Shown here one piece after another: positions 7,412-43,014 of a DNA stretch of 64,000 nucleotides. The stretch is taken from assembly GCF_009799925.1 (NCBI RefSeq), contig NZ_WELK01000001.1, positions 744,001 through 808,000 on the forward strand. The letters are read 5' to 3'. The stretch is from Pseudomonas sp. R-28-1W-6 (GTDB taxonomy: Bacteria; Pseudomonadota; Gammaproteobacteria; Pseudomonadales; Pseudomonadaceae). The notes below the pieces were generated by a model. That model was not told the origin of the DNA and ran no database searches. It saw nothing but the letters and a program-made list of their open reading frames with translations. A program made the position numbers and the translations under genes. Every line of letters starts with the position of its first letter. The first letter of the stretch is position 1.

Positions 7412-7442
7412 GCCGACCCTTTCATGTTTTGACTGCCCAGCC

Positions 7443-24968: not shown

Positions 24969-24973
24969 GATGC

Positions 24974-25736: not shown

Positions 25737-25737
25737 C

Positions 25738-26977: not shown

Positions 26978-26994
26978 CCGGCTGGGGACGGCTC

Positions 26995-29250: not shown

Positions 29251-29266
29251 TCCAGGAGAAGCACCC

Positions 29267-30298
29267 ATGACAAGCAAACACACCCTCGGCATGGTTCCCG
29301 AGATAGCTGACTTCATCCACCACAGCAGCCCGATCGCTAGTAGCGATCTGGCACTGGGTGCCGCCATCGCCGTTATGTCCTCTTTCGCCGCTGGGCGGTA
29401 TTGCATCCAGCCAAAGGGGGTGCCCGAAGCCAGCGTAGTCACGCAAGGCGTCATGCTGCTGGGGGAATGCGGCACCGGCAAGGGGGCAGCTATGGAAGGA
29501 GCCGAGCGGCTGTTTCAGGTAGTAGGCGACCCGGCGATAGCCACAGGTTTCTCGACACCGGAGGTACTGTGGAACTCTGCCACCCAGACCCCTGGCCTGC
29601 TTTTGCTTCTGGCGAATGAAGACCATCACAGCCTAGCGGCAAGAGACCCAGGCTTCGGGCAAGAACGCCCCCAACCAGCGCAATCGGACGTGCTCTTCAG
29701 CCTACAGTCGCACACGACCGGCATGGATGCCGTCTTTTACCCTCGTCCGAGTCGCAGTGCTGACTTCAAGCGGCGGCACCGACAAGCACCTGTCACCATC
29801 CTGGCGGAAACTACCCCCCAGGCCATGCGTGAACGGTTGCCGTTGTGGATGGACAGCAGCCCGTTCTATGGGGAGCTGCTGTTCGTTGGTGCGGTTCGAT
29901 TGCAAAAGGTCCGCAACCCCGCCCCTTGTAGGGTGGTTCCCCCAACGCTGCTTGCCAGGCTGAGGGAGTTGACGGCGCTGCGTCCCAGTGTGGAGCTGGT
30001 CATGGTGCAGATGGACCAAGAGGCGGAAGCGGACTACCGCACCCTTGTGGACTACTGCCGTTCTGCCGTTCCACCCCACGAGCCGGATGCTATGGCCTTG
30101 CTGGCACAGAGGGTGCTGAACGTCGCGACACTGTATGCCATCGGGATTGACCACAGGCAACCCGTCGTGACCCGCCAGCTCATCAAGGAGGCGGCAAACC
30201 TGGCTGTCTGGAGTAGGGAGCTAGCCCGTGCAGGGCTACAAGGCGTGCCCAGGGACTTCACTGAACTGGTTGCTGACCAGTTCCCTGTCGTCCACTAG
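29267..30298 (+). CDS. Stand-alone DUF3987-like P-loop ATPase (element 1)
   Basis: 343 residues from ATG 29267 with AGGAGA upstream, 16 bp after the primase gene. The P-loop LLGECGTGKGAAME lies near 63-76 and a Walker-B-like LLLLLANEDHHSL near 125. The region from residue 10 to about 135 runs parallel to the ATPase half of the preceding primase (LGKTGVGKE against LGECGTGKG, both preceded by an ALG.A..... AG/AAGR segment), so the two appear to be paralogues after duplication. A hetero-oligomeric helicase or loader is a reasonable guess. The gene ends just before the right terminator of element 1. Confidence 0.75.
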   Translation: MTSKHTLGMVPEIADFIHHSSPIASSDLALGAAIAVMSSFAAGRYCIQPKGVPEASVVTQGVMLLGECGTGKGAAMEGAERLFQVVGDPAIATGFSTPEVLWNSATQTPGLLLLLANEDHHSLAARDPGFGQERPQPAQSDVLFSLQSHTTGMDAVFYPRPSRSADFKRRHRQAPVTILAETTPQAMRERLPLWMDSSPFYGELLFVGAVRLQKVRNPAPCRVVPPTLLARLRELTALRPSVELVMVQMDQEAEADYRTLVDYCRSAVPPHEPDAMALLAQRVLNVATLYAIGIDHRQPVVTRQLIKEAANLAVWSRELARAGLQGVPRDFTELVADQFPVVH

Positions 30299-30354
30299 CA
30301 CGTGGGCCGGGTGTACCCCTGGGAGGGGTGTTTAACCCCCGGCTACACCCCCGG

Positions 30355-30390
30355 AAAATAAAAAAGGGTTACGTTTTCACGTAACCCTTT
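30355..30390 (-). terminator. Terminator at the right end of element 1 (reads from the tRNA side)
   Basis: Stem AAAGGGTTACG/CGTAACCCTTT with a four-base loop. On the minus strand it is followed by a T-rich tail (complement of AAAATAAAAAA). It sits seven bases left of the middle repeat, where it would terminate tRNA-Thr transcripts when element 1 alone occupied the site. It can also terminate the ATPase gene on the plus strand. Confidence 0.85.
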
Positions 30391-30396
30391 GTTTTA

Positions 30397-30443
30397 TATG
30401 GTGCCGGCACCAGGAATCGAACCCGGGACCTACTGATTACAAG
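30397..30443 (-). repeat. Middle attachment repeat between elements 1 and 2
   Basis: Identical over 47 bp to the 3' end of the intact tRNA-Thr (42651-42697) and one base different from the left copy. The sequence diverges immediately after the anticodon loop, so no tRNA is formed here. Confidence 0.92.
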
Positions 30444-30532
30444 GCCCGCATTATACCTTCCAGCTGGACACAGGTGTGCTTTTAAGGACGGAAAATTCCT
30501 TTGTGAATCAAAGGCTCAGGCACATCATTAGT

Positions 30533-30596
30533 CCGTGTCTGTTCGCTTGTGTGTGTGAGTGACCAGGCTCTATACAGACACAATATAGACACGGGA
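30533..30596. repeat. Putative integrase arm-type sites, left end of element 2
   Basis: CCGTGTCTGT (30533-30542) is the inverse of ACAGACACGG, and a 23-bp unit at 30574-30596 (ACAGACAC..TAGACACGGGA pattern) recurs at the right end of the element at 42575-42597. The position between the att repeat and the integrase start, and at the opposite terminus, fits arm-type sites. The unit also overlaps the integrase promoter area, so it may autoregulate. Confidence 0.55.
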
Positions 30597-30607
30597 GGTA
30601 CGGCATC

Positions 30608-32050
30608 ATGGCCACCACCATCGAAGGGGGCGAGAAAAAGAAAACCGGGATCATCCTCAACAACCTGCTAATCAAAGCCGCGTGCGCTGAGGCCAAGAAG
30701 TCTAAAAAGGAGGTGTGGCTGACAGAAGCAGGCGGCCGGGGCGAAGGCCGCATGCGTCTGCGCGCGTTCCCTAACGGCGAGCACGTCTTCTATTACAGGT
30801 ATTCCCTGGACGGGGTGCAAAAGCAGCTGCGCATCGATAAGGAAGACCTGGCCGAAGCCAGGGACAAAGCCAGCCGTCTGGCAGACCTGTATCGAGCTGG
30901 CCACCGCGATCTGCACGGCTACCTGGCTCAGACCCGCGCCATCGAGGATGCTGCCCGCGAGGCCGCCGCCCGCGAGCTGGAAGCCAAAGCGCGGCAGGGC
31001 ACCCTGGCACAGCTGCTCGCCGACTACATCGCCGACCTTGATCGGCGTGGCAAGAGCAGCGCGAAGGACGTGCGTGGCGCCTTCCGGCTGGACGTGCTGA
31101 CAGCTTTCCCTTCCATGGCAGCCAAGCCGGCCAAGGAGATAACCAGCGGTGACATTACCCGCATGCTGCGGCACTGCCTCACCCGTCCCGTGGCGAGCAA
31201 GGGCCGAGGCAAGAGACTCACACCGGCTAGCGCCAGCAATAACAAGTTGCGCCAGGCGGCCAAGTTGCGCGCCTACCTGCAAGCTGCATTCGGCTTCGGT
31301 CTGACTGCCGACAACGACGCGCTGCGCGCTGACGGAGAAGTGTTGTTTGGCCTGAGCTTCAACCCGGTAGCCAATACCAAAACCATAGAAGGCGCCGACC
31401 GGGCAGAGACTTGGGCGCTGACCAAGGATGAGCTGCGCCAAGTGTTGATGGCCATCGAGGGTCTGCCCGAGCGGCGCCGCTCGATTGCCAAGAGTATGTT
31501 GTACCTGGCCGGCCAGCGGGTGCAGATGCTCTGCCGTGTTACCTGGGCCGACCTGTACGACGACGGTGAGCATGGACCAGTACTTCAGATGATGGACCTG
31601 AAGGGTGGCAAGGGTACGCCGCCACGTGCGCACCTGATCCCCATGACCGAGCGCTTGGGCGAGGTCATGGCGCCGCTGCTGGCACTGTGCGGTACTGACG
31701 CGCCCGGTCCCTTCACCCTACGCGGCAAAGCCCCCGCCACAAGCGGTACGCTACAGAAGATATTCGCCGAGCTGGGCGACCAGCTAGCTGCGGTAGGTAA
31801 GACCCGCCGCTTCACCTGGCTGAATATGCGCTGCACCGTCGAAACGCATCTGGCAGCCCTGGGCGTGAATCAGGAGCGCCGCGCCTGGCTCCTGTCGCAT
31901 GGCCGCACTGGCGTGCAGGCGAAGCATTATGACCGCTATTCGTACCTGCCGGAGAAACGCCAGGACTTGGACAAGTGGACGCGCTACCTGGACCAACTCG
32001 CCAGCGGCGAGGCACGGACGAACGTCGTGCAGCTACATGCGGAGGCGTGA
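30608..32050 (+). CDS. int: Tyrosine recombinase (integrase) of element 2
   Basis: 480 residues, ATG 30608 with GGAGG upstream. The N-terminal DUF4102-like arm domain has RMRLRAFPNGEHVFYYRYSL (about 40-60), followed by a core-binding domain rich in Lys/Ala, and a catalytic domain with Arg in GQRVQMLCRVTW (about 301), Lys in LKGGKGTPP, WLNMRCTVETHLAALG (about 404, box II, where the usual first His of HxxR is Leu), LLSHGRTG (about 430) and Tyr in KHYDRYSYLPEK (about 441). It is unrelated in detail to the integrase of element 1 although both use the same tRNA site. Confidence 0.92.
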   Translation: MATTIEGGEKKKTGIILNNLLIKAACAEAKKSKKEVWLTEAGGRGEGRMRLRAFPNGEHVFYYRYSLDGVQKQLRIDKEDLAEARDKASRLADLYRAGHRDLHGYLAQTRAIEDAAREAAARELEAKARQGTLAQLLADYIADLDRRGKSSAKDVRGAFRLDVLTAFPSMAAKPAKEITSGDITRMLRHCLTRPVASKGRGKRLTPASASNNKLRQAAKLRAYLQAAFGFGLTADNDALRADGEVLFGLSFNPVANTKTIEGADRAETWALTKDELRQVLMAIEGLPERRRSIAKSMLYLAGQRVQMLCRVTWADLYDDGEHGPVLQMMDLKGGKGTPPRAHLIPMTERLGEVMAPLLALCGTDAPGPFTLRGKAPATSGTLQKIFAELGDQLAAVGKTRRFTWLNMRCTVETHLAALGVNQERRAWLLSHGRTGVQAKHYDRYSYLPEKRQDLDKWTRYLDQLASGEARTNVVQLHAEA

Positions 32051-32053
32051 ACC

Positions 32054-32371
32054 ATGGCAACCCTGGCCGCTCGACTCAAGGCACTGAACAAGCGTGTTGC
32101 CGCGCTGGAGCAAGACAGCGACCCCGCTGTGCAGGCGGTCTTGCTGCGGCTAGAAGCTTGCCTCGACGAAATCGACAAGGTGCTACCGCCAACGCGCCGT
32201 GGTCGACCAAAACAGCCTGATCTGTTGATACTGCCCTGGTTTGTCGATTCGGCTAAGAAGCTGGGGATGAAGACCGATAAGGCGGTGCTACAACGTCTTC
32301 TCCGCGGCGACAGGGGTAGCCTCAAGACCTGGCAGAACCAGCTCGCCAAGGCACGCAAGCTGCTGCACTAG
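32054..32371 (+). CDS. Small protein following the integrase (element 2)
   Basis: 105 residues, starting three bases after the integrase stop with GGAGG inside the integrase end, so it is co-translated. The N-terminal 45 residues are a Leu/Ala/Glu-rich helix that may coil (LKALNKRVAALEQD); a basic patch RRGRPKQPD follows near 50; the C-terminal part is helical (KTDKAVLQRLLRGDRGSLKT). No family recognised. Tight coupling to int suggests a role in recombination or DNA binding, but this is inference. Confidence 0.65.
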   Translation: MATLAARLKALNKRVAALEQDSDPAVQAVLLRLEACLDEIDKVLPPTRRGRPKQPDLLILPWFVDSAKKLGMKTDKAVLQRLLRGDRGSLKTWQNQLAKARKLLH

Positions 32372-32382
32372 CCACTCGTCGT

Positions 32383-32410
32383 CCCGAAAAATTCTGGGAA
32401 TTTTTTCGGG
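32383..32410. terminator. Hairpin between integrase unit and replication unit
   Basis: CCCGAAAAATTC/GAATTTTTTCGGG, a 12-bp stem with one extra T, lies just after the preceding gene. It may terminate the int unit or act as an operator for the Xis-primase unit. TGCGCTTCAGCGCA follows immediately as a second small palindrome. Confidence 0.5.
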
Positions 32411-32464
32411 ATGCGCTTCAGCGCAATGTCTCCCCCATGGCCACCGAGTCATTCGGAGACAAAC

Positions 32465-32653
32465 ATGGAACAGCACCTTTTCAGCCCCAACAGTGCCGCA
32501 CGGGCGCTCGACGTGAGCCGCAGCAAGGTTTACGACCTGATGAAACGCGGCCTTCTTCACTACGTTGTGATCGAGTCTGACCGCAGGATTCCGGCGAGCG
32601 AAATCGCTCGCATCGCGGCCGAAGGCATCCCTGCGAAGTCCGAGCAGGCGTGA
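32465..32653 (+). CDS. Excisionase/AlpA-like helix-turn-helix protein (element 2)
   Basis: 62 residues, ATG 32465 with CGGAGA upstream. A single DNA-binding unit of the excisionase/MerR type: FSPNSAARALDVSRSKVYDL, then MKRGLLHYVVIESDRRIPAS, then EIARIAAEG. Such proteins bend DNA for excision or regulate element genes. The stop overlaps the primase-helicase start, so both are translated together. It is functionally equivalent to, but different in sequence from, the AlpA-like protein of element 1. Confidence 0.88.
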   Translation: MEQHLFSPNSAARALDVSRSKVYDLMKRGLLHYVVIESDRRIPASEIARIAAEGIPAKSEQA

Positions 32654-34659
32654 TCGGCATGGCCGACCTCGGCACTCCGCTGGACTTTGCGCTGCGCTAT
32701 GCCGCGCATGGCATGCCTGTCCTGCCCCTGCATTCGGTGCGCGATGGCCGGTGCTCCTGCGGCAAACCAGGTTGCGCAAGTGTGGGCAAGCATCCGCGCA
32801 CGGAACATGGGGCACACGACGCCTCAACCGACGCGGAAACGATCCGGGCCTGGTGGAAGCAATGGCCCGACGCGAATGTCGGCCTGGCCCTGGATGGCCT
32901 CGTGGTGATCGATATTGACCCGCGCAATGGCGGCAATTTGCAGGCGATACCACAGCAATTGCCCGAGACTTGCCATGCCCGCACGGGCGGTGGCGGTTCG
33001 CATCACATCTTTCGGGCCCAAAACGGCACAAAGTACGCGGGCCGGCTCGGTCAGGGCATTGACCTCAAGAGCGGCGATGGCAGCTACATCGTCGTTGCGC
33101 CAAGTGTCCATGCAAGCGGCGCTGCCTACGAATGGGATGCCGCACCTTGGGAGCAAGAACCGGCCCCGGCGCCGGACTGGCTGCCAGTGAAAAGCGACAG
33201 CGCAGCCGCACAGACAGAGCTGACCCTGGACCTTGCTACGGTTGATCAGGTAGCCCTGTCTGTGCGGCTGGCTGCGGTACAGGCCGACTCCGATCTGCGG
33301 CAGCTACTGGACGGCAGGCCACCGCTGTGGGGGACTGACACATCAGGCAGTGGCCTGGATTTCGCCCTGGCGCTGGTATTGAAGCGACTGCATTTCAGCC
33401 CGGCTGAAATATTCGTCTGCATGGCCAACTACCCGTACGGTAAAAAAGATGGGCGCACAGCGGAGTACCTGAACAGGACCATCGCGAAGGTCTGTGCGCC
33501 GCCCGCTGCGCCGGCTGCGAGCGTTCCCGAAGCTGACGACTTCGCACCGTATTTATCCGAGTTTTGGGATGACTCCCTGGAAATCGACTGGCTGATCCGC
33601 GACTTTCTGGAGGATAACGTAACAGCCGAGATATGGGGGCCGGCTGGTAGCTATAAAACGTTTCTCGCGCTCGACATAGCCGTGTCGGTCGGTGGCGGCA
33701 TCGACTGGCACGGCAACGAAGTAGAGCGATCCGGCCCTGTTCTCTACGTCTGCGGCGAAGGGCGCACCGGTATCAACCGGCGGATCAAGGCGCTGTGCCA
33801 GAAACGCGGCCTGGGGCGTGACGTGCCTATCCGGGTGTCCAAGATGCCGTTACTGCTGAGTAAGAGCGAGCAGGCCAAGTTCCTGCAGGAAAAAATCGCC
33901 AGGTTCGACAGGCCACCCGTGTTGATCATCGTCGACACGCTGGCGCGTAACTTCGGCGGCAATGAGAACTCGGCCGAGGACATGGGCGCTTTCCTCGACA
34001 ACGTGGAAACGATCCGCCGTCTGTGCAATGCCACTGTGTTGATCATTCACCACTGCGGGCATGACGGGTCGCATGCGCGCGGGTCGTATGCGCTGCATGC
34101 CGGGGTAGACGCCGAATACCAGGCCAAGCCGGACAAAGCGCGCAAGGAACTGGTGCTGCAAAACAGCAAGATGAAAAACGCCGCCGACGGCGGATCGATT
34201 TTCTTACAAGCGGAAGTGACCAGCCTGATGAATGCCGACGGCAGCGTAGCCTTGGATAAAAAAGGTCAGCCTATCACCACCATCGTTATGCAAACGGGCA
34301 GTTCGCGGCAGGCCGACGCCGTTGCGGCGTTCTTCATGGCACATCCGGGGCTGGAAGGGGCGGGCCGGAGCAAATACAAGGAGCGCCTGCCGATTGTGCT
34401 GCAAAAGCTGTACGACACTCCGGGCGCAACCAAAATCGACTTGTGCAAGGCGTGCGGCGTGAAAGCCGGTGCGGCGCTCGATGTCCTGCTTCAACAGATG
34501 CGCTGCGAAGGCCTGCTGGATATGACCGCCATGCGGTTGACCGTGGAAGGCAAAAGGGCAGCTGAAACCTTTGGCAAACGGGCTGATATGCGGTTTGCCG
34601 ACCAGATAACCGAGAAAGCCGAACGGGAGGCTCTAGCACAAGGGTTTCAGGGTGCTTAG
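32650..34659 (+). CDS. PrimPol-helicase replication protein (element 2)
   Basis: 669 residues if the GTG at 32650 is used (an ATG at 32659 is an alternative). The N-terminal bifunctional primase/polymerase domain (about 5-180) shows a small Cys cluster (CSCGKPGCASVGKHPR), the catalytic VVIDIDPRNGG near 86-96 and GGGGSHHIF near 113. The middle AAA/RepA-like ATPase (about 310-500) has Walker A GPAGSYKT near 330, Walker B LIIVDTLAR near 425 and IHHCGHDGSHARGSYAL near 465. The C-terminus may be a winged helix (about 575-640). It would prime and unwind the element's DNA. Overlaps the Xis gene by four bases. Confidence 0.9.
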   Translation: MIGMADLGTPLDFALRYAAHGMPVLPLHSVRDGRCSCGKPGCASVGKHPRTEHGAHDASTDAETIRAWWKQWPDANVGLALDGLVVIDIDPRNGGNLQAIPQQLPETCHARTGGGGSHHIFRAQNGTKYAGRLGQGIDLKSGDGSYIVVAPSVHASGAAYEWDAAPWEQEPAPAPDWLPVKSDSAAAQTELTLDLATVDQVALSVRLAAVQADSDLRQLLDGRPPLWGTDTSGSGLDFALALVLKRLHFSPAEIFVCMANYPYGKKDGRTAEYLNRTIAKVCAPPAAPAASVPEADDFAPYLSEFWDDSLEIDWLIRDFLEDNVTAEIWGPAGSYKTFLALDIAVSVGGGIDWHGNEVERSGPVLYVCGEGRTGINRRIKALCQKRGLGRDVPIRVSKMPLLLSKSEQAKFLQEKIARFDRPPVLIIVDTLARNFGGNENSAEDMGAFLDNVETIRRLCNATVLIIHHCGHDGSHARGSYALHAGVDAEYQAKPDKARKELVLQNSKMKNAADGGSIFLQAEVTSLMNADGSVALDKKGQPITTIVMQTGSSRQADAVAAFFMAHPGLEGAGRSKYKERLPIVLQKLYDTPGATKIDLCKACGVKAGAALDVLLQQMRCEGLLDMTAMRLTVEGKRAAETFGKRADMRFADQITEKAEREALAQGFQGA

Positions 34660-34838
34660 AGGGGTTTCACTTCTAAATGAAACTCTAACCTTTCAGATAG
34701 AACTGAAACCGGCTGAAAACGGTACCGGTTGGAAGTTGAGTGGGAGGCTCTAGCACAAGGGCTAGAGGGGTTTCATTTAGAAGTGAAACCTAACTGAAAT
34801 CCATAGTTTCAGCTAATCCCCCCCCTAGGGGGTTAGCT
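34625..34838. repeat. Direct and inverted repeat cluster after the primase gene (candidate origin)
   Basis: A 20-bp direct repeat (34625-34644 inside the gene end; 34742-34761 in the gap) is each time followed by one of two inverted 20-bp copies (34664-34683 and 34770-34789) that are exact reverse complements and contain GTTTCA/TGAAAC ends. A hairpin AGCTAA...TTAGCT with a C/G tract stem spans 34811-34838, and extra TGAAAC motifs lie around it. Location directly behind the replication gene suggests iterons or a single-strand origin. Confidence 0.6.
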
Positions 34839-34878
34839 AAATGAAACCCTGAGGTAAATGAACGAAGGAGACACCCCT

Positions 34879-35166
34879 GTGAAACCCAAATACCTGGCGC
34901 ATCCGAGCCAAGCCCGGTGCATCGACTCCCCTGTGGAGCAAGAACGCCTGCTTGCGATGGGCTGGCTGCTGACCAAGCCAGCGCCACGGACCAAGGATGC
35001 CAAACGCATGCGCATGCTGCGAACTCGCCGCAGGGCTGAGGGCTGGGTGGGCCTGACGCTATGGCTGCCACCGGATCAAGCCGCTGCCGTAACGGCCGTC
35101 AAGCGTAAGAACGAGAGCTACGCCGAGCTACTGACCCGCCTGGTGCGTGAACAGGGTTCGTCGTGA
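34879..35166 (+). CDS. Small basic protein, possibly ribbon-helix-helix (element 2)
   Basis: 95 residues from GTG 34879, preferred over ATG 34858 because GGAG lies eight bases upstream of it. The N-terminal half is variable (MKPKYLAHPSQARCIDSPVE); the C-terminal half has a strongly basic patch (DAKRMRMLRTRRRAEG) followed by GLTLWLPPDQAAAVTAVKRK and ESYAELLTRLVREQ. That strand-helix-helix order matches a ribbon-helix-helix DNA-binding fold. It sits just after the repeat cluster, so it may bind it to control replication or transcription. Identity is inferred from pattern only. Confidence 0.65.
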   Translation: MKPKYLAHPSQARCIDSPVEQERLLAMGWLLTKPAPRTKDAKRMRMLRTRRRAEGWVGLTLWLPPDQAAAVTAVKRKNESYAELLTRLVREQGSS

Positions 35167-35283
35167 CAGACCTGGCAGATGGGCACACAGAATTAGAGAA
35201 CTGGAACGAAGTCCCGATATGGCAGCAAACGGCAGGAAATGGTCCCTGAAAAGTTAATCAAGGGATTTCTAGTCCCATGTTTA

Positions 35284-35339
35284 GTACGTCTAAACCAGGC
35301 GTTTCAGCTGGTTTGAAGCTGAAAGCGTGGTTTTCGTAC
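35284..35339 (+). promoter_or_regulatory. Overlapping mutually exclusive hairpins before the small-gene series
   Basis: AAACCAG/CTGGTTT (35292-35314) and TTTCAGC/GCTGAAA (35302-35324) share bases and cannot both form; GTACG/CGTAC encloses them. They lie about 50 bases upstream of the first gene of the long plus-strand series. This could be an attenuator or operator. 35167-35283 shows nothing else clear. Confidence 0.4.
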
Positions 35340-35387
35340 CTGTTGTGTGCCTGTTGAGTGCCACAGCAGTGCTTAGGGAGGTGCCCC

Positions 35388-35567
35388 ATGGCTACCTATA
35401 GCCAAACATCAGAAAACCTCACCAGCGAGCGCGTTGGCACTCTCCCGAGGCTAAAACGCACCCTGTTGACCTGGGTCTTCGAGGCTAGTCGTGATGTGCC
35501 ATTCCGGCCGCGCGGTACGCGGTGCCATAACGGATTCAGGCGGCAGGTGAAGGGGTTCCGCGTATGA
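35388..35567 (+). CDS. Small unknown protein, first of the element 2 gene series
   Basis: 59 residues from ATG 35388, preceded by GGGAGG at proper spacing. The sequence is Arg/Thr-rich (VGTLPRLKRTLLTWVFEASR, then PFRPRGTRCHNGFRRQVKG) with a basic C-terminus. No family recognised. Its stop overlaps the next start by ATGA, so it is translationally coupled. Confidence 0.55.
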   Translation: MATYSQTSENLTSERVGTLPRLKRTLLTWVFEASRDVPFRPRGTRCHNGFRRQVKGFRV

Positions 35568-35941
35568 ACGTCACAACATCATCGACTGCTACCCCTGAGC
35601 AGATACGCGCCGCGCTGTCACCTGGCCAGGCCGAACTGGTGATCGACGCCTGTAACGCTTACCAGGCCCAGGCAGCCGCAGAGTGCGAGCATGCCGCAGC
35701 TAAGCGGGCCAGGTCGGATCATGCCCGCAAAACTAGGACCGAGCGCCTACATGCCGCGATTGACGCCCTGATCGAGGGCCACCGCCCTCAACTCAAGGCG
35801 TGGAAGAAAAGCCGGCGCAGCCGCGCAGAGTGGGCGAAGAAGCAGATCATCACGGATGCCGAGAAAGGAAACACGAAAGCAAACCCGCTGGTGCCCAGCT
35901 GGCGTTATATCGACGATTATTTAAAGACCCTGCATCTCTAA
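35564..35941 (+). CDS. Small helical protein (element 2)
   Basis: 125 residues. Ala/Glu/Arg-rich and predominantly helical, with possible coiled coil at about 30-75 (AECEHAAAKRARSDHARKTR) and a basic stretch LKAWKKSRRSRAEWAKKQI near 80-98. The C-terminus NPLVPSWRYIDDYLKTLHL is more hydrophobic. Coupled to the preceding gene by four-base overlap. Function unknown; the charge pattern suggests nucleic-acid binding. Confidence 0.65.
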   Translation: MNVTTSSTATPEQIRAALSPGQAELVIDACNAYQAQAAAECEHAAAKRARSDHARKTRTERLHAAIDALIEGHRPQLKAWKKSRRSRAEWAKKQIITDAEKGNTKANPLVPSWRYIDDYLKTLHL

Positions 35942-36037
35942 TAATAGAACAGCAGACTCCCTGCCAAATCACTGTTAACAAGTAGCCCGTCCAGCGTTAT
36001 ATCTCCAATTACGAACAACGTATTGGAGCGCCTCCAA

Positions 36038-36505
36038 GTGAGCAAAGAAGTCAGCGAAGAAAAACATCAGCCTGTTGTTTCCCTGACCATGCGCGACGTT
36101 CGCCTGCGCGAAGCGGCGGGTAACGTATTCCGCATCATTGCCCCACTGGGAACAACGCCAGAGCGCTTGGAAGAGTCAAGTTTCTACAGTGTTATTTCTC
36201 ACCAGTTCCACCCCTTCGACGAGCTGATCGTTATCGCTGCGGACCGCACGTTTTATGCGCGCTACTTGGTTTTGCAGGCCGGGATGGGTTACGTGGAGGT
36301 GTTTCAGCTCAGCTTTATAAAATTGCCCGCGATGTTGGCCTCCATTGGTGAAACGCTGCCCGACAATCATCGACTGGTGTATGCAGGCCCGGAAATCGGA
36401 TGGCAGGCTATCCGCAGCAGCGATGGGGTTGTCGTCATTGACCGCGCCACTTCGCAGACCGATTGCCTCCAGCAGCTCCTTAACCACGGCAGCCTCCGCA
36501 AATGA
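36038..36505 (+). CDS. Hypothetical protein (element 2)
   Basis: 155 residues from GTG 36038, with GGAG nine bases upstream; a TTG at 36023 is the alternative. It looks like a compact alpha/beta protein: a charged N-terminus, strands such as VVSLTMRDVRLREA and ELIVIAADRTFYARYLVLQA, and a C-terminal helix (ATSQTDCLQQLLNHGSLRK). No recognised motif, no membrane segment. The next gene starts within its stop codon, so it belongs to the same co-translated series. Confidence 0.7.
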   Translation: MSKEVSEEKHQPVVSLTMRDVRLREAAGNVFRIIAPLGTTPERLEESSFYSVISHQFHPFDELIVIAADRTFYARYLVLQAGMGYVEVFQLSFIKLPAMLASIGETLPDNHRLVYAGPEIGWQAIRSSDGVVVIDRATSQTDCLQQLLNHGSLRK

Positions 36506-36963
36506 ACATCGCAGCCCACGTTCAGGCAGTGGCCATACAGTTCATTTCATATCGCGGCGACATTACCGCGCTCGCCAAATTCGTTGCTGCGAGCATGGTG
36601 ACAGGCGCCCCTAGTATCGCCGACCTGGTGCATTACTTGCGCAAAGAGTCCACGGCCAAGGAACTTCAGGAATATGAAGTGGGCTTGTGGCGCAATACGG
36701 CTGGAGATTGGTCGCTTGTCTCCTTAGCTACGCCGCCGACCATCGAGGCGATGAAGTACCGCCTGGATAACTTCCCTGTATCGAATACCCAATGTCGCTG
36801 GTGCCTTCAGGACGCGAAGCGCCTGGCTGATCTCGAACTGATCAGCGAGATTGATTTGCATGGTCTGCCAGTGCACCGCAGCCGACTGCATCCACAGTGC
36901 ATGCGGCCCTGGTTGTCGATGCGCACCCAAGTTGCCCGTGCTGGAGTTGTCCATGAGCAATGA
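36502..36963 (+). CDS. Hypothetical protein with Cys pair (element 2)
   Basis: 153 residues. An N-terminal helical part (IQFISYRGDITALAKFVAAS) is followed by a middle strand region. The C-terminal third contains CRWC near 99-102 with further His and Cys (GLPVHRSRLHPQC), possibly a zinc site. Overlaps its upstream neighbour by four bases and its downstream neighbour by eleven. No family recognised; a structural zinc-binding role is a guess from residue spacing. Confidence 0.68.
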   Translation: MNIAAHVQAVAIQFISYRGDITALAKFVAASMVTGAPSIADLVHYLRKESTAKELQEYEVGLWRNTAGDWSLVSLATPPTIEAMKYRLDNFPVSNTQCRWCLQDAKRLADLELISEIDLHGLPVHRSRLHPQCMRPWLSMRTQVARAGVVHEQ

Positions 36964-37879
36964 CCTCGAACGGTACGGCCCCGGTGAAGTAGCCCCATAC
37001 AGCCCATCGCAGCCGCTCGCGCCGGTCGCAGACGACTGGGGCGAAGTTCCTGACTACGCCATCGCCGACCGCCAGCAGCACAGCAGCGGCGCCCAGATGT
37101 TCGGCACGCCCCTGCCGCCTGGCACGACGCAAGCGCATATAGAACGCGCCTTGGGCGAAATAAGCGGGGTGTTTCTCGCCGATATGTCCCGTTTAAATCA
37201 TCCGGTCAAGTTCTCGACCGCCGCTGTGGCTTGGCTTGAGCGGGCCGCCTTGCAGCCGCCGCGCCGCGAGAAGAAGCGCCACTCGTATGACCTGCACGAC
37301 CAGGCCGGCGATCCGGTTGCCGAGTCCTTCGCCAATGCAATGGCGGCCGTAAATGCGCCGCAGGAATTCGTTAGCAATGCGATCTGGTGGATCGAAGAAC
37401 TGGAACGGCAGCAGAGTCAACAAACTCATGTAAGCCATGAGTCGGCACAGGGACGTGCACCCTCTTCCGGCGATCCGCTCGATAGCCTGGATGACGGGCA
37501 ATACGCCCAGGTGATCGCCATAAATGACCGCGCAAAAGCTGAAACGCTGGGCTACCTACGAGACTTATGGGGCCAAAGCTACCAAACCAACTTGCGTATG
37601 GTGCAGGTGTATTTTCAAAACTTGCCGCAACGTGAACAAGATTATCTTGGACAAATGACAAGCGGATGGGTCTCGGGTTTAAACACCAAGGAAATACTGC
37701 TGGGCCTTTTCAACCAAGCCATCGGTGCCGGCAGTATTCCAAGAAGCGGTGCGGCCCTACAGGATGAAATCGAAGAGTGCCACCGCTGCATGCGGGAGCA
37801 GCCCAGAAAGTGGCGAGAGGACGAGAGGCTTCAGGCCAGGTATAGAGCCCTCGTAGATATTCGAGATAAGGGGCGGTAA
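36953..37879 (+). CDS. Largest protein of the small-gene series, unknown function (element 2)
   Basis: 308 residues from ATG 36953 (GGAG upstream); an open frame to 36851 is rejected because it lies inside the preceding gene. The N-terminal 60 residues are Pro/Ser/Asp-rich and likely disordered; from about 65 on it is helical with EISGVFLADMSRL, VAWLERAALQPP, a linker near 165-185, and a C-terminal helical domain with ETLGYLRDLWGQSYQTN and EIEECHRCMREQPRKW. No enzymatic motif seen. Size and place in the operon suggest it could redirect phage assembly, as satellite operons do, but nothing in the sequence proves it. Confidence 0.72.
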   Translation: MSNDLERYGPGEVAPYSPSQPLAPVADDWGEVPDYAIADRQQHSSGAQMFGTPLPPGTTQAHIERALGEISGVFLADMSRLNHPVKFSTAAVAWLERAALQPPRREKKRHSYDLHDQAGDPVAESFANAMAAVNAPQEFVSNAIWWIEELERQQSQQTHVSHESAQGRAPSSGDPLDSLDDGQYAQVIAINDRAKAETLGYLRDLWGQSYQTNLRMVQVYFQNLPQREQDYLGQMTSGWVSGLNTKEILLGLFNQAIGAGSIPRSGAALQDEIEECHRCMREQPRKWREDERLQARYRALVDIRDKGR

Positions 37880-37908
37880 TACCGCGCCTTAATTTGGAGT
37901 AAATAAAC

Positions 37909-38226
37909 ATGGCGTATTCATCAACTAACCCGGCCCGGCGTATAACCGACCTCGGTCTTCCTTCAACGGGTGGCGGCTCTATTTATGCCTACGAGTCCAC
38001 GCACACTCATGCCGCCGTGGAGGCTGCCAACTTCTTTAGTGGTTGCGGATTCGGTTCGCCGTCTCCGGACAAGGCCATTGGCATGCGAATAGGCGACCTA
38101 CTGGTCAATATCAACCAGAGCACAGCAGGCACTTCGGCGATAACCTGGCACCGGGTTACCTCACTCTCCACTTCAACCGGATGGAACTCACCGATCCATG
38201 CTTCCGTGTCAGTAGCGAGTTCCTGA
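37909..38226 (+). CDS. Small Gly/Ser/Thr-rich protein resembling phage head decoration proteins
   Basis: 105 residues, ATG 37909 with GGAG at nine-base spacing. The sequence MAYSSTNPARRITDLGLPST, the short Gly run, SIYAYESTHTHAAVEAANFF and IGMRIGDLLVNINQS follow the layout of small beta-rich proteins encoded beside phage head genes. If it is a decoration or capsid-modifying protein it would support a satellite lifestyle. The resemblance is by pattern memory, and a search is needed to confirm it. Confidence 0.6.
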   Translation: MAYSSTNPARRITDLGLPSTGGGSIYAYESTHTHAAVEAANFFSGCGFGSPSPDKAIGMRIGDLLVNINQSTAGTSAITWHRVTSLSTSTGWNSPIHASVSVASS

Positions 38227-38229
38227 GCA

Positions 38230-38418
38230 ATGAAGATGTCAGAAATAAAGGCGCAGTCTGCCGCCTGGAATAAGCCGTCGAAGATCACGCCCGAGCTATG
38301 GGAGGAAATCCGCCCGCTGGTGAAGTTCATCCTGCGGCAAAGACCTATTTCCGATTCGCGAATGTTCAATGCGTGTTGGGTTGCGTCTTTACTCTGCAAA
38401 AGGGGATACAAATTATGA
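38230..38418 (+). CDS. Very small helical protein (element 2)
   Basis: 62 residues. Content: KMSEIKAQSAAWNKPSKITP then ELWEEIRPLVKFILRQRPIS, a single amphipathic helix pair with two Cys and a basic C-terminus CKRGYKL. Starts three bases after the previous stop and overlaps the next gene by ATGA. No family recognised. Confidence 0.5.
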   Translation: MKMSEIKAQSAAWNKPSKITPELWEEIRPLVKFILRQRPISDSRMFNACWVASLLCKRGYKL

Positions 38419-38585
38419 GAAGTCAAAACGATCTAAAACATGACGGTAGGGTATTGCGCGACAAGCTCGTCTTATCGGGTGCAGATCCTGAATTATTGCG
38501 CAAGTTAAATAACTTGGTAGATAGCCCATTTCTGCAAGCCGGTGATTTGGAAAAGTTGCGCCGTTTGCTGGGAGAAACTTCATGA
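38415..38585 (+). CDS. Very small helical protein (element 2)
   Basis: 56 residues, mainly charged and Leu-rich (LKHDGRVLRDKLVLSGADPE, then LLRKLNNLVD and LEKLRRLLGETS). Flanked by ATGA overlaps on both sides, so translation is linked throughout. Function unknown; possibly a small regulatory or scaffold-like protein. Confidence 0.55.
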   Translation: MRSQNDLKHDGRVLRDKLVLSGADPELLRKLNNLVDSPFLQAGDLEKLRRLLGETS

Positions 38586-39001
38586 TGTCCCCACGACTCG
38601 CGCAAATCGCTAGGAAGCTGGACCGGGCTAAACCACCGCCAGCAGAGAAAGCTGAACCAGCCTCTGGTGATCTGGGCGCAGCCATCGAACAGCTTATCGC
38701 CGAGCAGGTCGAGGCCCGCGTCGGCCTGGAACTGGACCGCCAGCAAGACCTGCAACATAACCCGCGTCTGCGCCACCTGTTGCGCTCCAGCCAGCCGACG
38801 ATGGCCACGGACTTCAAGGACGTTCCACCGCCGCCTAGAACGCCACTGCCGACCGTGCAGGGCGCCACCATCCAGCGGGGCGAAGACGGGCGCGCAACCG
38901 TGGTCAACATCGGCAGCATGCAGTACCGCGTGGTGCGTGATCACCTCGGCCGGGCTTCGGCCTTGATGCCCGCCGACGCTGCTGAGGGAGAATCCCGGTG
39001 A
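38582..39001 (+). CDS. Small protein of unknown function (element 2)
   Basis: 139 residues. An N-terminal Lys/Ala/Pro-rich region (ARKLDRAKPPPAEKAEPASG), a helix with EQLIAEQVEARVGLELDRQQ near 35-55, a Pro-rich segment DVPPPPRTPLPT near 82, and a short beta-rich tail (GATIQRGEDGRATVVNIGSM). No known domain. It overlaps both neighbours by four bases. Confidence 0.65.
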   Translation: MMSPRLAQIARKLDRAKPPPAEKAEPASGDLGAAIEQLIAEQVEARVGLELDRQQDLQHNPRLRHLLRSSQPTMATDFKDVPPPPRTPLPTVQGATIQRGEDGRATVVNIGSMQYRVVRDHLGRASALMPADAAEGESR

Positions 39002-39237
39002 TCGTATACACGCCGCGCAAGGGCGAATACGGCAGCCACGGACAGGCGCTGCGCGAGGCTGAAGCGCTTGTGGAGGCCTTGCGTGACCCCGTGCGCTTCA
39101 GTGAATTCGCAGCCAAATTTCCGGGAGGGCTGGTGAGTAAACACGTCTTCGATTACACCCTCATAACCTGCGATGAAGAAGACGGCCATCTAGTCATAGC
39201 GGTGTGCGAGTGCCCCGAGCCGCCGGAGAGACTGTGA
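38998..39237 (+). CDS. Small protein of unknown function (element 2)
   Basis: 79 residues starting at a GTG that overlaps the previous stop (GTGA). Contains KGEYGSHGQALREAEALVEA and a final acidic beta part DYTLITCDEEDGHLVIAVCE. Similar in size to small accessory proteins of phage packaging regions, but no family is recognised. Its last base is the first base of the next gene. Confidence 0.6.
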   Translation: MIVYTPRKGEYGSHGQALREAEALVEALRDPVRFSEFAAKFPGGLVSKHVFDYTLITCDEEDGHLVIAVCECPEPPERL

Positions 39238-39614
39238 TGGGCCGGCCGGTAGGTTCTGTGAAGACTGGTGGCAGGCGGCCGGGCAGCCTAGATCGGCAGC
39301 AGCGGCAACTGATAACCGAGCAGATGGCTTTCGATGTGCTCGCGGTTTATCGGGGGCTCGGTGGAGCGATGTGGCTGATGGAGTTCGCCAAGGCCAATCC
39401 GGGCCAGTTCGTGCAGCAGTGCTTGAGCCGACTCCTACCAGCAGCACCGAAGGAAGACGCCGACGTGCAGGTAAACATGCTCAGCGTCGGCAATATCAGC
39501 GACTTCGAGATTGCCCGGCGCCTCGCGTTCGTCCTGGCCGCTGGTGCGAATGCGCAGCAGGATCTACAGGAACAGCAGCCCCCTGTGACCGTGCAGGAGA
39601 CTCCCGGTGACTGA
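39237..39614 (+). CDS. GRPxGS-motif protein, possible small-terminase-like (element 2)
   Basis: 125 residues from ATG 39237, with GGAGAG upstream (an in-frame start at 39204 is not supported). The N-terminus MGRPVGSVKTGGRRPGSLDR is the Gly/Arg-rich motif seen at the start of many phage small-terminase-like and DUF5681-type proteins; a helical core follows (AFDVLAVYRGLGGAMWLMEF, FVQQCLSRLLPAAPKEDADV). The parallel gene in element 1 is 24974-25606. A redirecting terminase subunit would let the element be packaged into helper capsids; this is inference. Confidence 0.7.
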   Translation: MGRPVGSVKTGGRRPGSLDRQQRQLITEQMAFDVLAVYRGLGGAMWLMEFAKANPGQFVQQCLSRLLPAAPKEDADVQVNMLSVGNISDFEIARRLAFVLAAGANAQQDLQEQQPPVTVQETPGD

Positions 39615-39834
39615 TGACGAAATCCGCATGGCGGTGAAGGTGCTGCGCCTGGCCATCGACCTCGACAACGGCGATACCCTCACGCCCGAGCAGCTCGCCG
39701 CGTGGAGCCTGATCAGGGATACCTACGTCCATGACTGGTTATCGCACCCTGGCTCAGCCGCCGAGCAGGTGACGGGCGTAGCGGATCGGCCGGTGGTGGT
39801 GGTCAAGCGCACGGTGGCCAGGTGGCGCCAGTAA
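39607..39834 (+). CDS. Last small protein of the plus-strand series (element 2)
   Basis: 75 residues from GTG 39607, overlapping the preceding stop by eight bases. Acidic N-terminal helix TDDEIRMAVKVLRLAIDLDN, then LTPEQLAAWSLIRDTYVHDW, ending in a Val/Arg-rich tail. No family recognised. No strong terminator is visible before the oppositely oriented gene at 39875. Confidence 0.55.
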   Translation: MTDDEIRMAVKVLRLAIDLDNGDTLTPEQLAAWSLIRDTYVHDWLSHPGSAAEQVTGVADRPVVVVKRTVARWRQ

Positions 39835-39874
39835 TACCAGCACTACGAGCGACGGTAGTCTTGAAACCGGCCGA

Positions 39875-40057
39875 TCAGGGCCTATCTCGTTCTTCGCCTG
39901 TGGAGCCGCGCCCTCGCTCCAGGCGTAGCGAGCTGTTGTGAAATAGATCCAGCTGCTCCGGCGCCGGCTCCAACTCGATGAGTTGCCCGGTGGTGAGGTC
40001 GATAGCGGGATGGGTGAAGCCGCGTAGGGCTTCGCCAGGGACGATGGCGATAAGCAT
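39875..40057 (-). CDS. Small protein on the minus strand (element 2)
   Basis: 60 residues from ATG at 40057, with AGGAG eight bases upstream. Sequence MLIAIVPGEALRGFTHPAID then TGQLIELEPAPEQLDLFHNS, with a basic Arg/Gly C-terminus. The good ribosome site supports it; a longer frame in another phase (39754-40191) overlaps it and is rejected. Function unknown. It may be expressed with the three-gene operon that ends about 200 bp upstream. Confidence 0.45.
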   Translation of the reverse strand: MLIAIVPGEALRGFTHPAIDLTTGQLIELEPAPEQLDLFHNSSLRLERGRGSTGEERDRP

Positions 40058-40263
40058 GGTGGCGTCTCCTGTTTAGCGGCATTTATTGAGCGCCCGCAAG
40101 TGGGGTAAATCGGCGCGATTTTTATTATAGACCGCGTGCACGTAGGCGGCCGATCCATGCGTGATTGAGCTGATAGGCAGGAGCCGGTCATAGGCGGACA
40201 AGCATCTCGCGCAGCAGTGCGGAAGGAGAAGACTATGTCGCCACGATCATCGTGGCTGAGACG

Positions 40264-40830
40264 TCACGCCGTTATTGGCTCGTCTGTAAACGCCTCAGTC
40301 AGCATCAGCCTTGCGAGTTTTTGCTGCGACTTCGAAAGCGACTTGAAGGCGGAGGGTAGCTCGATGACATCAACATGGGCTGTGTTCTCACGCAAGGCCG
40401 TGTCATAGACACCGTATGCACGTTCATCCGCAACCTTTAGAGCTCTCACGGCACCAACCGACGCCACCACCGCACCAACATAGGTACGCTCTCCCTGCGT
40501 CGGCTTTCGGTTGGCGTTGAACGATTCGACTTGAGCTATTCCGCGCGCGTGGAGTTCACCACGTGGTGCGCTAGAGCCACTGCGCTCACAAGAGAGTCCT
40601 TTGTCTTTTGCGTCAGAAAAGAGTGCTGTGACAACCTTTCCGTCGTGAAGATGTAACGGGGAATATACGTAGCGATGAATAAATTCGCCGTCCGTTACTA
40701 CTCCGTCTGAGTAGGCGCTTACGCTTTCAGCTTCGCACTCAGCATTGGGGTGCGCATCATCAATCAGGCTTGCCCTAGCAGACACGGCACCTCTAGTCGC
40801 CAATGATTCGAAGAAAACTCGACAACTCAT
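40264..40830 (-). CDS. Third gene of the cargo operon, unknown family (candidate defence component)
   Basis: 188 residues, ATG at 40830, six bases after the preceding stop. Visible patterns are a central HRYVYSPLHLHDGKVVTALF and DAKDKGLSCERSGSS (His pair plus GLSxER), and a later ERAYGVYDTALRENTAHVDV, which I associate with a widespread uncharacterised family where a VYDTA..ENxAH segment is conserved. The C-terminus is a Lys/Leu helix. No transmembrane segment. The conserved His, Asp and Glu could form an active site. Its function is unknown; the operon position in a satellite beside the att site suggests host or phage-directed cargo. Confidence 0.75.
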   Translation of the reverse strand: MSCRVFFESLATRGAVSARASLIDDAHPNAECEAESVSAYSDGVVTDGEFIHRYVYSPLHLHDGKVVTALFSDAKDKGLSCERSGSSAPRGELHARGIAQVESFNANRKPTQGERTYVGAVVASVGAVRALKVADERAYGVYDTALRENTAHVDVIELPSAFKSLSKSQQKLARLMLTEAFTDEPITA

Positions 40831-40836
40831 TCAGCG

Positions 40837-41340
40837 CTAGATCCGAGCAAGGTAGCCGATAAATTGCGAGTCGAGCTGATACGTATCAAAGCTCAAGTCG
40901 GGGCTGGCAAACACCTCATTACTATCCTTGTAAATAAAGTGATAGCTGTTATCACCGGGGAAGGAGATTTCCAGATAACTACCGTTTCGTTTCCAGAAAA
41001 GCGAGATTTCCCCATCGCCAGCGAGCATGGAAGCAGGCAGCTCAAAGCGCTTAGTTAGCTTCTGAACAAACTCCATCGCATTTGAGAACGAGCCGTAGGT
41101 CGCGGGTTGACCACCGTAACCATCCCAGTCCTCATCAAGGCCACGATACATGAAGAGCTTTTCTGTCAAGCGAGCCATCGCATACTCCCAGCTCTTCGCA
41201 TGAGTGGGTGGAAGCATCCGCATGCGCCCAGGCGCAATGGTCACTTGAGCGTGCGTAGAAGGCCATTGTGCTTGGTTGGACTCCACCAGAAACGCTTTCG
41301 GTTGCTCTATCGTGCTGCTTCGTTCCGCTACGGCGCCCAT
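40837..41340 (-). CDS. Second gene of the cargo operon, DWDGYG-motif protein
   Basis: 167 residues from ATG at 41340, preceded by GAGGGAT; a TTG at 41352 would overlap the upstream gene instead. A variable N-terminus is followed by FMYRGLDEDWDGYGGQPATY near 77-96, MEFVQKLTKRFELPA, then GEISLFWKRNGSYLEISFPG near 122-141, and a beta tail. This D/NWDGYG...P...GEI.L.W...LEI.F layout recurs in many uncharacterised proteins of mobile DNA. It is eight bases after the first gene and six before the third, so the three are one transcription unit. Confidence 0.78.
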   Translation of the reverse strand: MGAVAERSSTIEQPKAFLVESNQAQWPSTHAQVTIAPGRMRMLPPTHAKSWEYAMARLTEKLFMYRGLDEDWDGYGGQPATYGSFSNAMEFVQKLTKRFELPASMLAGDGEISLFWKRNGSYLEISFPGDNSYHFIYKDSNEVFASPDLSFDTYQLDSQFIGYLARI

Positions 41341-41348
41341 GTGATCCC

Positions 41349-42200
41349 TCAATCCGACTTTTTAGGGTCGAAGTGGATTAATTCCTTCGCGGCATTGGTG
41401 ATGACGTCGCCGAATACCGCCTTGCTCTCATCATGTAGATATTTAAAGGCAGGTGCGAGGCTCTCGCTCACATTCCCCGTTTCATCGATCAATGAAAGAG
41501 GGGTGAACAACTGATATTTGTGCAGCGTCAAGACGGTAACGTCAAAGCTAGAGGAAACCCTATTAACGTTGACATCAATATTAGTCAAAATTTTACCATT
41601 CAGCTCGAATTTAGGCGCCGAGAAAAAGCCGTGATGGGAGTGGAATGCGTCGTCAAGTTTATCGATGCCAGATGGTAAATACCGACTATCTATATTAAAC
41701 AGGTCGGTAAGTGGCTTTGCTTTTCCATCAGCAAAGCTGACCTTGAAGGTATCGGTGTACTGAAGGGATAGGCATGCCGCTGCTACATTAGCGAGCCACG
41801 GTTTCAGAATTCCGAGGTAATGATTAACCTCATCAGCGACTTTTGCCCAGCGCTCATACTCACCACAAACGACAGATAGGGCATTAGCGTCGATGTTAAC
41901 AGCAATGGCAGGCTGGCCGTCTTCTCGCATCCGAGCAAATGATATGCCACCAATCATTCCGGGCATAGGAACAGGCGGGGAAACCATTTGATGCTCTGCA
42001 CCAAAGGCAAAATTGAGCGTCATTTGCTGCTTTTCAATCACCCTAGGAAGGCGCTCCTTCAGCTGTTCGTGAAGGCGTCCTCCTACCATCAAGTCGGCAA
42101 AGGCATGTGGCGCTAGCGGAGTAGCGAACTCGAAGACGAACAGCACGTTGCTGATTGCATGCCCATGCTTGGCGTCAAACGGCTTGATTAAGGCTGTCAT
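41349..42200 (-). CDS. First gene of the cargo operon, TIGR04255-like protein
   Basis: 283 residues. The middle has AIAVNIDANALSVVCGEYER followed by WAKVADEVNHYLGILKPW near 98-135, then VAAACLSLQYTDTF, resembling the strand-helix-strand core of the TIGR04255 family (variable proteins with a WxxF/V...L......RxGLRY pattern). The N-terminal half contains ISNVLFVFEFATPLAPHAFA and the C-terminal half is beta-rich. Base composition is visibly AT-richer than the element's replication genes, suggesting separate acquisition. No function is established that I know of. It starts 450 bp from the tRNA and leads the operon. Confidence 0.7.
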   Translation of the reverse strand: MTALIKPFDAKHGHAISNVLFVFEFATPLAPHAFADLMVGGRLHEQLKERLPRVIEKQQMTLNFAFGAEHQMVSPPVPMPGMIGGISFARMREDGQPAIAVNIDANALSVVCGEYERWAKVADEVNHYLGILKPWLANVAAACLSLQYTDTFKVSFADGKAKPLTDLFNIDSRYLPSGIDKLDDAFHSHHGFFSAPKFELNGKILTNIDVNVNRVSSSFDVTVLTLHKYQLFTPLSLIDETGNVSESLAPAFKYLHDESKAVFGDVITNAAKELIHFDPKKSD

Positions 42201-42604
42201 GAATTCTCAGTTTTTCCACTCGGTTAGACAGCTGCTTGGGCAGCCGCATCCTGCCCTGCCTTAGCCGCCTCGGGGAGCGCGATATTACCATAGCCTCCCC
42301 TACCGCGTACCTACAATAAAGCACAGAACCCGCAATGCTGCAGTTACCAAGTGACGCCTTCGCACGGACAAGAGTGGCGCTATAAGCCATAAACAGGCAC
42401 CCCTCCTAGCAACCTCAAGTTCGAAGCGGTCACGATAGAGCGTTCGGGTATCCCACGACGGGCCGTTTCGGGTTGTTAGTTGCCTGTCAGTGACTATCCA
42501 TACATGCTCGGACAGCGGCGCCATGCGCATACCGCTGGGGGCGTAGTCAATTCTCGCATTATGCCTCGCGTCTTACAGACACCAAACAGACACGGGAAAC
42601 CCCA
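42201..42604. other. Noncoding right arm of element 2
   Basis: Promoter region of the three-gene operon and the end of the element. It contains the 23-bp arm-type unit 42575-42597 (partner of 30574-30596). A 76-codon minus-strand frame (42300-42530) has no ribosome site or family pattern and is not called. Confidence 0.55.
42575..42597. repeat. Putative integrase arm-type site, right end of element 2
   Basis: 23-bp unit with two AGACAC motifs ending in CACGGGA, matching the left-end unit at 30574-30596 at most positions. It lies 54 bp inside the right att repeat. Confidence 0.55.
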
Positions 42605-42607
42605 AAA

Positions 42608-42644
42608 ACGAAAAAGGCCCACCTTGCGGCGAGCCTAAGTCGTT
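42608..42644 (-). terminator. Element-supplied terminator 3' of tRNA-Thr
   Basis: Imperfect hairpin (ACGA..AGGC against GCCT..TCGT) followed on the minus strand by TTTTTCGTTTTT, eight bases from the tRNA 3' end. It has a similar stem to the displaced native terminator at 19751-19782. Confidence 0.7.
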
Positions 42645-42652
42645 GTTTCGTA

Positions 42653-42728
<76 letters not shown>

Positions 42729-42991
42729 AAGGGGCGCCATTATAGCCATTGGCGACGCGGAGTAAACCGTTGCGATGCAGTTGATACCTGGGCCGGCTAT
42801 CAGCCGCGCTGCGCTTATGCACAATCGAGAGGCGTAATGAAGACGAATGCGCGGCTTTTGTGCGCCAGCTCTCAGTCAAGCATAACTTGCTGTTTTTAAT
42901 GGTTTTTTGTTTGTGATCAAAAAATCTACAGCGCCGTGCAGGGCAGGAGCGGCCGGCGTTTCAGCAACTTCTGCAGAAACTACGCACAGAG

Positions 42992-43014
42992 TTATCCACA
43001 GCTTCTGTGGATGC
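42992..43014. promoter_or_regulatory. DnaA-box-like inverted pair
   Basis: TTATCCACA (42992-43000) is an exact match to the DnaA box consensus. With the facing CTGTGGAT it makes the inverted repeat ATCCACAG/CTGTGGAT, directly after the methyltransferase stop at 43018. It may be a DnaA site or only a hairpin. The remainder of 42729-43017 holds nothing clear. Confidence 0.4.

Follow-up and report, generated by a model that had tools for sequence, protein, structure and literature searches.

A horizontally mobile three-gene operon at a tRNA-Thr gene of Pseudomonas sp. R-28-1W-6 as a candidate anti-phage cassette

Three small genes at the right end of an integrated element of Pseudomonas sp. R-28-1W-6 raise the question whether they form a functional unit and, if so, whether this unit serves the defense against phages. 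The stretch of DNA analyzed here, called the window in the following, comprises 64,000 nucleotides, and the operon consists of three open reading frames on its minus strand (40264-42200), transcribed in the order g1-g2-g3. g1 (41349..42200, minus strand) encodes a protein of 283 aa assigned to the family TIGR04255 by its NCBIfam score, for which an AlphaFold model is available as well. g2 (40837..41340, minus strand) encodes a WDGYG protein of 167 aa from ATG, recognized as an ORF with conserved residues, and g3 (40264..40830, minus strand) a protein of 188 aa which, judging from its conserved residues and AlphaFold model, is a candidate effector enzyme. With ATG starts, the intergenic gaps amount to 8 bp between g1 and g2 (the g1 stop ends at 41349, the g2 ATG is found at 41340) and 6 bp between g2 and g3 (g2 stop at 40837, g3 ATG at 40830). 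Alternatively, g2 might start at an in-frame TTG upstream of this ATG (41352, minus strand), yielding a protein of 171 aa and a possible 4-bp overlap with g1. A sequence-only reading of this locus had described three minus-strand genes spaced by 6-8 bases, and the positions, strand and order of the ORFs agree with its claims; the motifs DWDGYG, HLHDGK, GLSCER, and VYDTALRENTAH were likewise all found in the translations. Also in agreement with it, the operon is richer in AT than the replication-gene region of the element, the GC content being 0.511 for the triad, 0.593 for the element stretch 30608-39614 and 0.669 for the host DNA at 43018-64000. In the interval from g1 to the right attachment repeat, a promoter scan returned no site, and overall it gave fewer sites than were found in shuffled sequences.

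The element itself has a length of 12.25 kb and is bounded by two 62-bp direct repeats, which carry no strand and are 92% identical (left copy 30382..30443, right copy 42636..42697). The right copy overlaps the 3′ end of a tRNA-Thr gene (42653-42728, minus strand) and runs into it. An integrase-like gene with homologues in three related genomes (30608..32050, plus strand) is located beside the left repeat, a replication protein of the primase/helicase-like type, recognized by reading of its translation only, is encoded at 32650..34659 (plus strand), and the triad lies just inside the right end. Given the attachment repeats at a tRNA gene and the integrase-like gene at the opposite end, the operon can be regarded as cargo of a tRNA-site integrative element, and the cargo position near the tRNA attachment end proposed for it was confirmed. 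Besides the tRNA, an Rfam scan of 30000-43000 yielded nothing. Two further observations concern the surroundings. Short direct repeats of a 37-nt and a 27-nt family are found just 3′ of the replication gene (34616-34789) and are possibly the origin of the element, and further primase-like and small genes border the left attachment repeat on its left side (24285-30298), probably representing a neighboring element or the remnant of one.

Integrases similar to the one of the window are rare, with matches at E ≤ 1e-80 in 4 of 199 genomes of the genus, the window's own among them. The other three show 63-68% identity across residues 130-476. Two of them are found inside elements with long flanking direct repeats, at tRNA-Met or tRNA-Thr, and the third is accompanied by a single 20-bp repeat only. 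In tblastn searches of the three corresponding 20-kb stretches, g1-g3 and the other tested proteins of the window element were absent. One of these integrases (genome G169) is even located at a tRNA-Thr gene, beside host genes which by reading resemble those of the window; this 6.5-kb element (L121, reverse complement, 874-7418) does not carry the triad. As elements with related integrases thus occur without g1-g3, also at tRNA-Thr, the triad is optional cargo.

If the three genes form a unit, they should be found together elsewhere. Whole-genome searches covered the window's own phylum. g2, used as single protein for the genus, was found in 5 of 199 genus genomes, in 5 of 293 genomes (6 places) of the order sample and in 15 of 398 genomes of the phylum sample, and these overlapping searches together gave 23 distinct places. 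Directly downstream of g2, a g3-like gene was present in all 23 of them, and a TIGR04255 gene was located directly upstream in 17. Among the 23 downstream genes, 21 are rows of a larger g3 profile, the remaining two being the copy in G140 and a truncated copy in G588 (profile E 3e-12). This profile was built from genes beside g2; in a leave-one-out run with the alignment columns kept and E calculated for 2000 sequences, 23 of its 24 rows were recovered at E ≤ 1e-4 and the row of locus L045 at 0.0018 (20 rows and L045, respectively, when only the 21 rows from g2 places are considered). Applied to the phylum sample, the profile identified 16 of 398 genomes. Among them are the 15 g2 genomes; 14 of these were found by construction, as they contribute profile rows, which G588 does not. 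The sixteenth, G738, had been missed by the first g2 profile; there, g3 is directly preceded by genes for TIGR04255 (8.9e-25) and a g2-like protein (4.5e-7). An out-of-sample run of the g3 profile found 6 of 284 class genomes, including the window's own, and thereby five new places. One of these is cut by a contig end, and all four readable ones have g2 directly upstream (E 6.7e-24, 1.5e-24, 1.5e-20, and 4.3e-8), three of them with TIGR04255 upstream as well. A pattern-limited scan for g3 in 84,980 species genomes returned two loci. The earlier reading had suggested to count how often the three genes co-occur in order across genomes and in defense islands; the order is indeed kept, whereas an enrichment of defense genes was not seen in the small sample discussed further below.

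The relationship is less strict when viewed from g1. In a reverse search of 200 phylum genomes, 19 contained TIGR04255, at 20 places in total. Seven of these places, nearly all of them profile rows, have clear downstream g2 and g3 genes, one more (L068) has g2/g3 when enlarged profiles are used, two (L073, L074) show them weakly, and at ten the profiles detect no g2 and no g3 within ~1.5 kb per side. Several other TIGR04255 operons (L063, L066, L071, L065, and L080) contain different small downstream partners, namely an LSNTCDMS-type protein in three and an HTH_3 protein in one (L065). The aligned third genes of L063, L066, L071, and L065 are not recognized by the g3 profile. In view of these different partner genes, TIGR04255 may serve more generally as a sensor that works with several sets of partners.

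TIGR04255 was also considered as the fixed core of the operon, a notion that was rejected since g2-g3 is the constant pair. On sequence grounds, the conserved unit is g2-g3, with TIGR04255 as its usual but replaceable partner. The three-gene unit of the sequence-only reading therefore holds insofar as its members co-occur in order, whereas its fixed part is reduced to g2-g3, TIGR04255 being exchangeable and also found without recognizable g2/g3. In the six of 23 places lacking TIGR04255, the situation upstream of g2 differs. Three (L038, L039, and L042) are by reading seemingly g2-g3 pairs alone, and in two (L034, L045) the slot holds a protein not recognized by the g1 profile. At the sixth (L044:3853-6311), an AAA_21 ATPase gene ends 4 bp before g2-g3 and matches the PADLOC models AbiLi (3.1e-77) and AriA (2.8e-30). 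L044 may thus represent another architecture, in which a sensor of known type takes the place of g1. The adjacency may also be a coincidence, since ATPases of this kind are widespread and AbiLi-/AriA-like matches also occur in a control stretch lacking g2-g3. In one of the out-of-sample loci (L131:1335-2884), g2 has a length of 381 aa, with ~300 additional N-terminal residues unassigned to a family and no TIGR04255 match, and is followed by g3. The L131 contig appears phage-like by reading. Both the ATPase of L044 and the fusion of L131 are single cases.

A constant pair of small genes is also what would be expected of a toxin-antitoxin-like maintenance module, with g3 as toxin, g2 as antitoxin and g1 as an extra regulator, which stabilizes the element or spreads selfishly. 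This is the next best reading after defense, even though we consider it unlikely. It is in line with the occurrence of g2-g3 without TIGR04255 in the six places mentioned, with the small size and tight spacing of the ORFs and with several copies which by reading are lone inserts between housekeeping genes (L050 and L129, both at mnmG/mnmE, and L037-L039), a location that fits selfish modules too. Similar to type II toxin-antitoxin systems, g2 and g3 are small, adjacent and travel together; in contrast to these, they belong to no known toxin or antitoxin family, and operons of the window type usually have a larger third gene, which is kept in 17 of 23 copies. Described toxins and antitoxins are represented in Pfam, and none of 24 g3 and 25 g2 proteins had a match there at E ≤ 0.01. 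Toxin-antitoxin pairs are abundant on plasmids, yet a tblastn search of 72,556 plasmids with three queries found no relative of any of them.

Viral sequences gave a different picture. Full triads are present in six IMG/VR contigs (L002, L004, L051, L057, L058, and L060), and two further IMG/VR copies (L003, L059) are cut by contig ends. Viral scans with g2 and with A9 yielded no result, and no triad was detected in 50,697 GenBank phage records with two queries. Comparison of L002 and L004 resulted in dN/dS values of 0.081 for g1, 0.081 for g2, and 0.050 for g3, and selection on the triad is hence purifying; between the window and L051 or L004, synonymous sites are saturated at protein identities of 46-56%. 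For 22 triads, the pairwise distances of the genes are correlated with each other (0.798, 0.818, and 0.774, with 0 of 2000 permutations as high), which is partly due to the common descent of the carriers. These data support that the triad is a selected, mobile operon, the members of which co-occur in order in distantly related bacteria from a sample spanning the phylum and in viral contigs. The viral carriage, the phage-like genes that by reading accompany the copies in L057, L058, and L036, and the satellite-like nature of the window element could also point to a function for the element or phage itself and not to host immunity, for example by interfering with helper or competing phages, by excluding superinfection or by anti-defense. 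Nevertheless, phage genes are by reading not evident within 7 kb of many whole-genome copies, and the three elements with related integrases lack the triad, so that such elements manage without it. We therefore rate a purely element- or phage-serving role as distinctly improbable.

What the individual proteins might do was approached by sequence and structure comparisons. g1 matches NCBIfam TIGR04255 with 47.5 bits at a cut-off of 30, its residues 14-275 covering positions 5-251 of the 252 positions of the model; the likeness to this family noticed earlier thus amounts to membership by a score above the curated cut-off over nearly the full length. The family entry ("sporadTIGR04255") carries no function. 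A search of 5.39 million papers found none naming TIGR04255 or "sporadically distributed protein", and the main text of the DefensePredictor study (PMC13092281) contains no word starting with TIGR. Of the proteins in g1 position, 19 of 20 match TIGR04255 at E ≤ 0.01. The single exception we take to be the one of L045, because a g1 profile built without L045 fails to recognize it. In the alignment of 27 g1 proteins, from which the g1-position protein of L045 was left out, Tyr115 is invariant and Trp118 is conserved in 24. The AlphaFold model of g1 (pLDDT 86.3, pTM 0.84) predicts an alpha/beta saddle-like fold. A Foldseek search gave one match (6bm7_F, E 2.8e-4, TMq 0.26), and the best VIA-align hit was 4woe_A (Z 7.7, rmsd 4.0, 170 residues aligned). 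The predicted fold thereby resembles AdoMetDC, TBP, and guanidino-kinase domains, at background level (Z < 8); as Z stays below 8, these likenesses were set aside as functional evidence.

Taken at face value, the same likenesses together with the sporadic nature of the chromosomal copies would suit a metabolic, stress-related or RNA-processing operon, enzymatic or regulatory, which became mobile by chance. Considering the background level of the fold matches, the lack of any metabolic family match, the sporadic distribution also within the phylum sample (g2 in 15, g3 in 16 of 398 genomes) and the carriage by viral contigs, such a non-defense operon seems very improbable.

For g2 of the window, Pfam, NCBIfam, PADLOC, and PHROGs contained no match at E ≤ 1, and a sequence search of solved structures found nothing. 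Among 34 aligned relatives, G110 is conserved in 33, W72, P102, and W116 in 32, G74 in 30, and D73 in 29. g3 of the window belongs to no family of Pfam, NCBIfam or PADLOC, the best row being DUF2213 at a sub-threshold E of 0.022, and PHROGs gave only rows at E 0.086 or worse; the wider set of 24 g3 proteins had no PADLOC match at E ≤ 0.01 either. Sequence searches of solved structures with g1 and g3 returned chance-like rows only (best E 0.026). In the alignment of 34 g3 relatives, from which the truncated copy of G588 was left out, Ser80 and His152 are invariant, Arg53 is present in 31, and Arg83, Glu49, and Phe71 are present in 30 proteins. From an input of eight sequences, AlphaFold2 predicted a compact alpha/beta domain for g3 (pLDDT 91.8, pTM 0.87). 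This model had no fold match in the PDB, where the best VIA hit, a ribosomal S6 permutant, reached Z 2.6 over 68 residues; BFVD gave no match at E ≤ 0.001 either, and the absence from these match lists excludes no fold. No match in PDB, BFVD, Pfam or PADLOC points to a catalytic class of g3. By these comparisons, g2 and g3 are protein families undescribed in the searched libraries.

PARIS consists of the ATPase AriA and the Toprim protein AriB, and AbiL of AbiLi and AbiLii. The window operon may be likened to both in its working principle only, in which a large protein of the sensor type is paired with a small effector in one compact operon that travels on satellites or prophages. It differs from them in that g1-g3 have no Pfam AAA and no PADLOC match, so that it is neither PARIS nor AbiL; the Toprim effector AriB is absent, g3 matching neither Pfam Toprim nor PADLOC, and an AbiLi/AriA-like ATPase precedes g2-g3 in the relative L044, not in the window. 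Against PADLOC-DB 2.0.0, the three window proteins matched 0 families at E ≤ 1, in accordance with the earlier reading, to which no described defense system of this composition was known. Homology to a known metabolic or housekeeping operon or to a named defense system, which had been put forward as an argument against the proposal, was not found in Pfam, NCBIfam, and PADLOC, with TIGR04255 for g1 as the only assignment. According to Rousset et al. (2022), a three-gene system "with no clear predicted domain" from a P2-like phage hotspot protected against P1 (PMC9122126); like the window operon, it comprises three unannotated genes as phage cargo. This likeness is one of description, and the two may be identical even though PADLOC gave no hit to the window proteins.

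A few copies are found close to defense genes. The triad of L031 is located 1.4 kb from a full-length Mokosh MkoA (1912 bits), and L034 adjoins a protein with a short or partial HEC-05-like match and a restriction-type protein. For a mechanical comparison, 149 ORFs with a minimum length of 140 aa were picked at 20 loci up to a distance of 7 kb, of which 8 above 760 aa were dropped, leaving 141; the 1677-aa helicase of L031 was kept despite this limit, which favors the test set. Of 18 control stretches, two very short ones were left out, and 122 of 130 ORFs from the other 16 were kept. At E ≤ 1e-15, 16 PADLOC families were matched by the 141 neighbor proteins compared to 8 by the 122 control proteins, which in this small sample is no enrichment. 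Five proteins account for the 16 families: four families are matched by the helicase of L031, four by two proteins of L034, seven by a DEAD-box helicase-like protein of L047, which is of no special meaning, and the last (MzaA) by one further protein. The L044 ATPase was missed by the pick and is therefore uncounted, and the control stretches themselves contain AbiLi- and AriA-like matches. In the DefensePredictor study, defense islands hold 14% of the uncharacterized predicted and 17% of the known E. coli defense genes (PMC13092281), and with such fractions the neighborhood test has little power either way.

Taken together, we give an even chance to the triad being a horizontally mobile three-component immunity cassette with g1 as putative sensor and g2-g3 as putative effector unit. 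In such a cassette, g1 as a large saddle-like alpha/beta protein would sense infection or a phage product, and g2 could be a small adaptor linking sensor and effector or a lock holding g3 silent. With its invariant Ser/His, near-invariant Arg/Glu and compact alpha/beta domain, g3 would be the effector enzyme and might act on a molecule of the host or the phage, thereby halting phage production in the infected cell. The division into sensor and effector is proposed because the g1 slot changes while g2-g3 stays, as expected of such systems. Extending this, the loci might belong to an unnamed widespread anti-phage system in which a fixed unit of a g2 adaptor and a g3 Ser/His enzyme, the latter with a fold of which no relative has been solved, is combined with exchangeable sensors, mostly TIGR04255 and elsewhere an AbiLi/AriA-like ATPase or a fused domain. 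This wider proposal is tentative and somewhat doubtful, also in view of the AbiLi/AriA-like matches in a control stretch.

In kind, the triad would be a mobile cassette of the sensor-effector type built of undescribed families. If the immunity reading is true, two families undescribed in the searched libraries gain a function, TIGR04255, a family without known role, finds its place among the sensors, and g3 may stand for an effector chemistry with a so far unsolved fold. The conserved residues of g3, Ser80, His152, Arg53, and Arg83, are direct targets for mutation. As a minor observation, the triads at L050:6602-8540 and L129:5725-7371 both lie in the interval from mnmG to mnmE, as the genes were named by reading, and belong to different subfamilies, with a window-like g1 in Ca. 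Thiosymbion and a canonical TIGR04255 in G973, which suggests that the mnmG-mnmE interval is a recurrent insertion spot.
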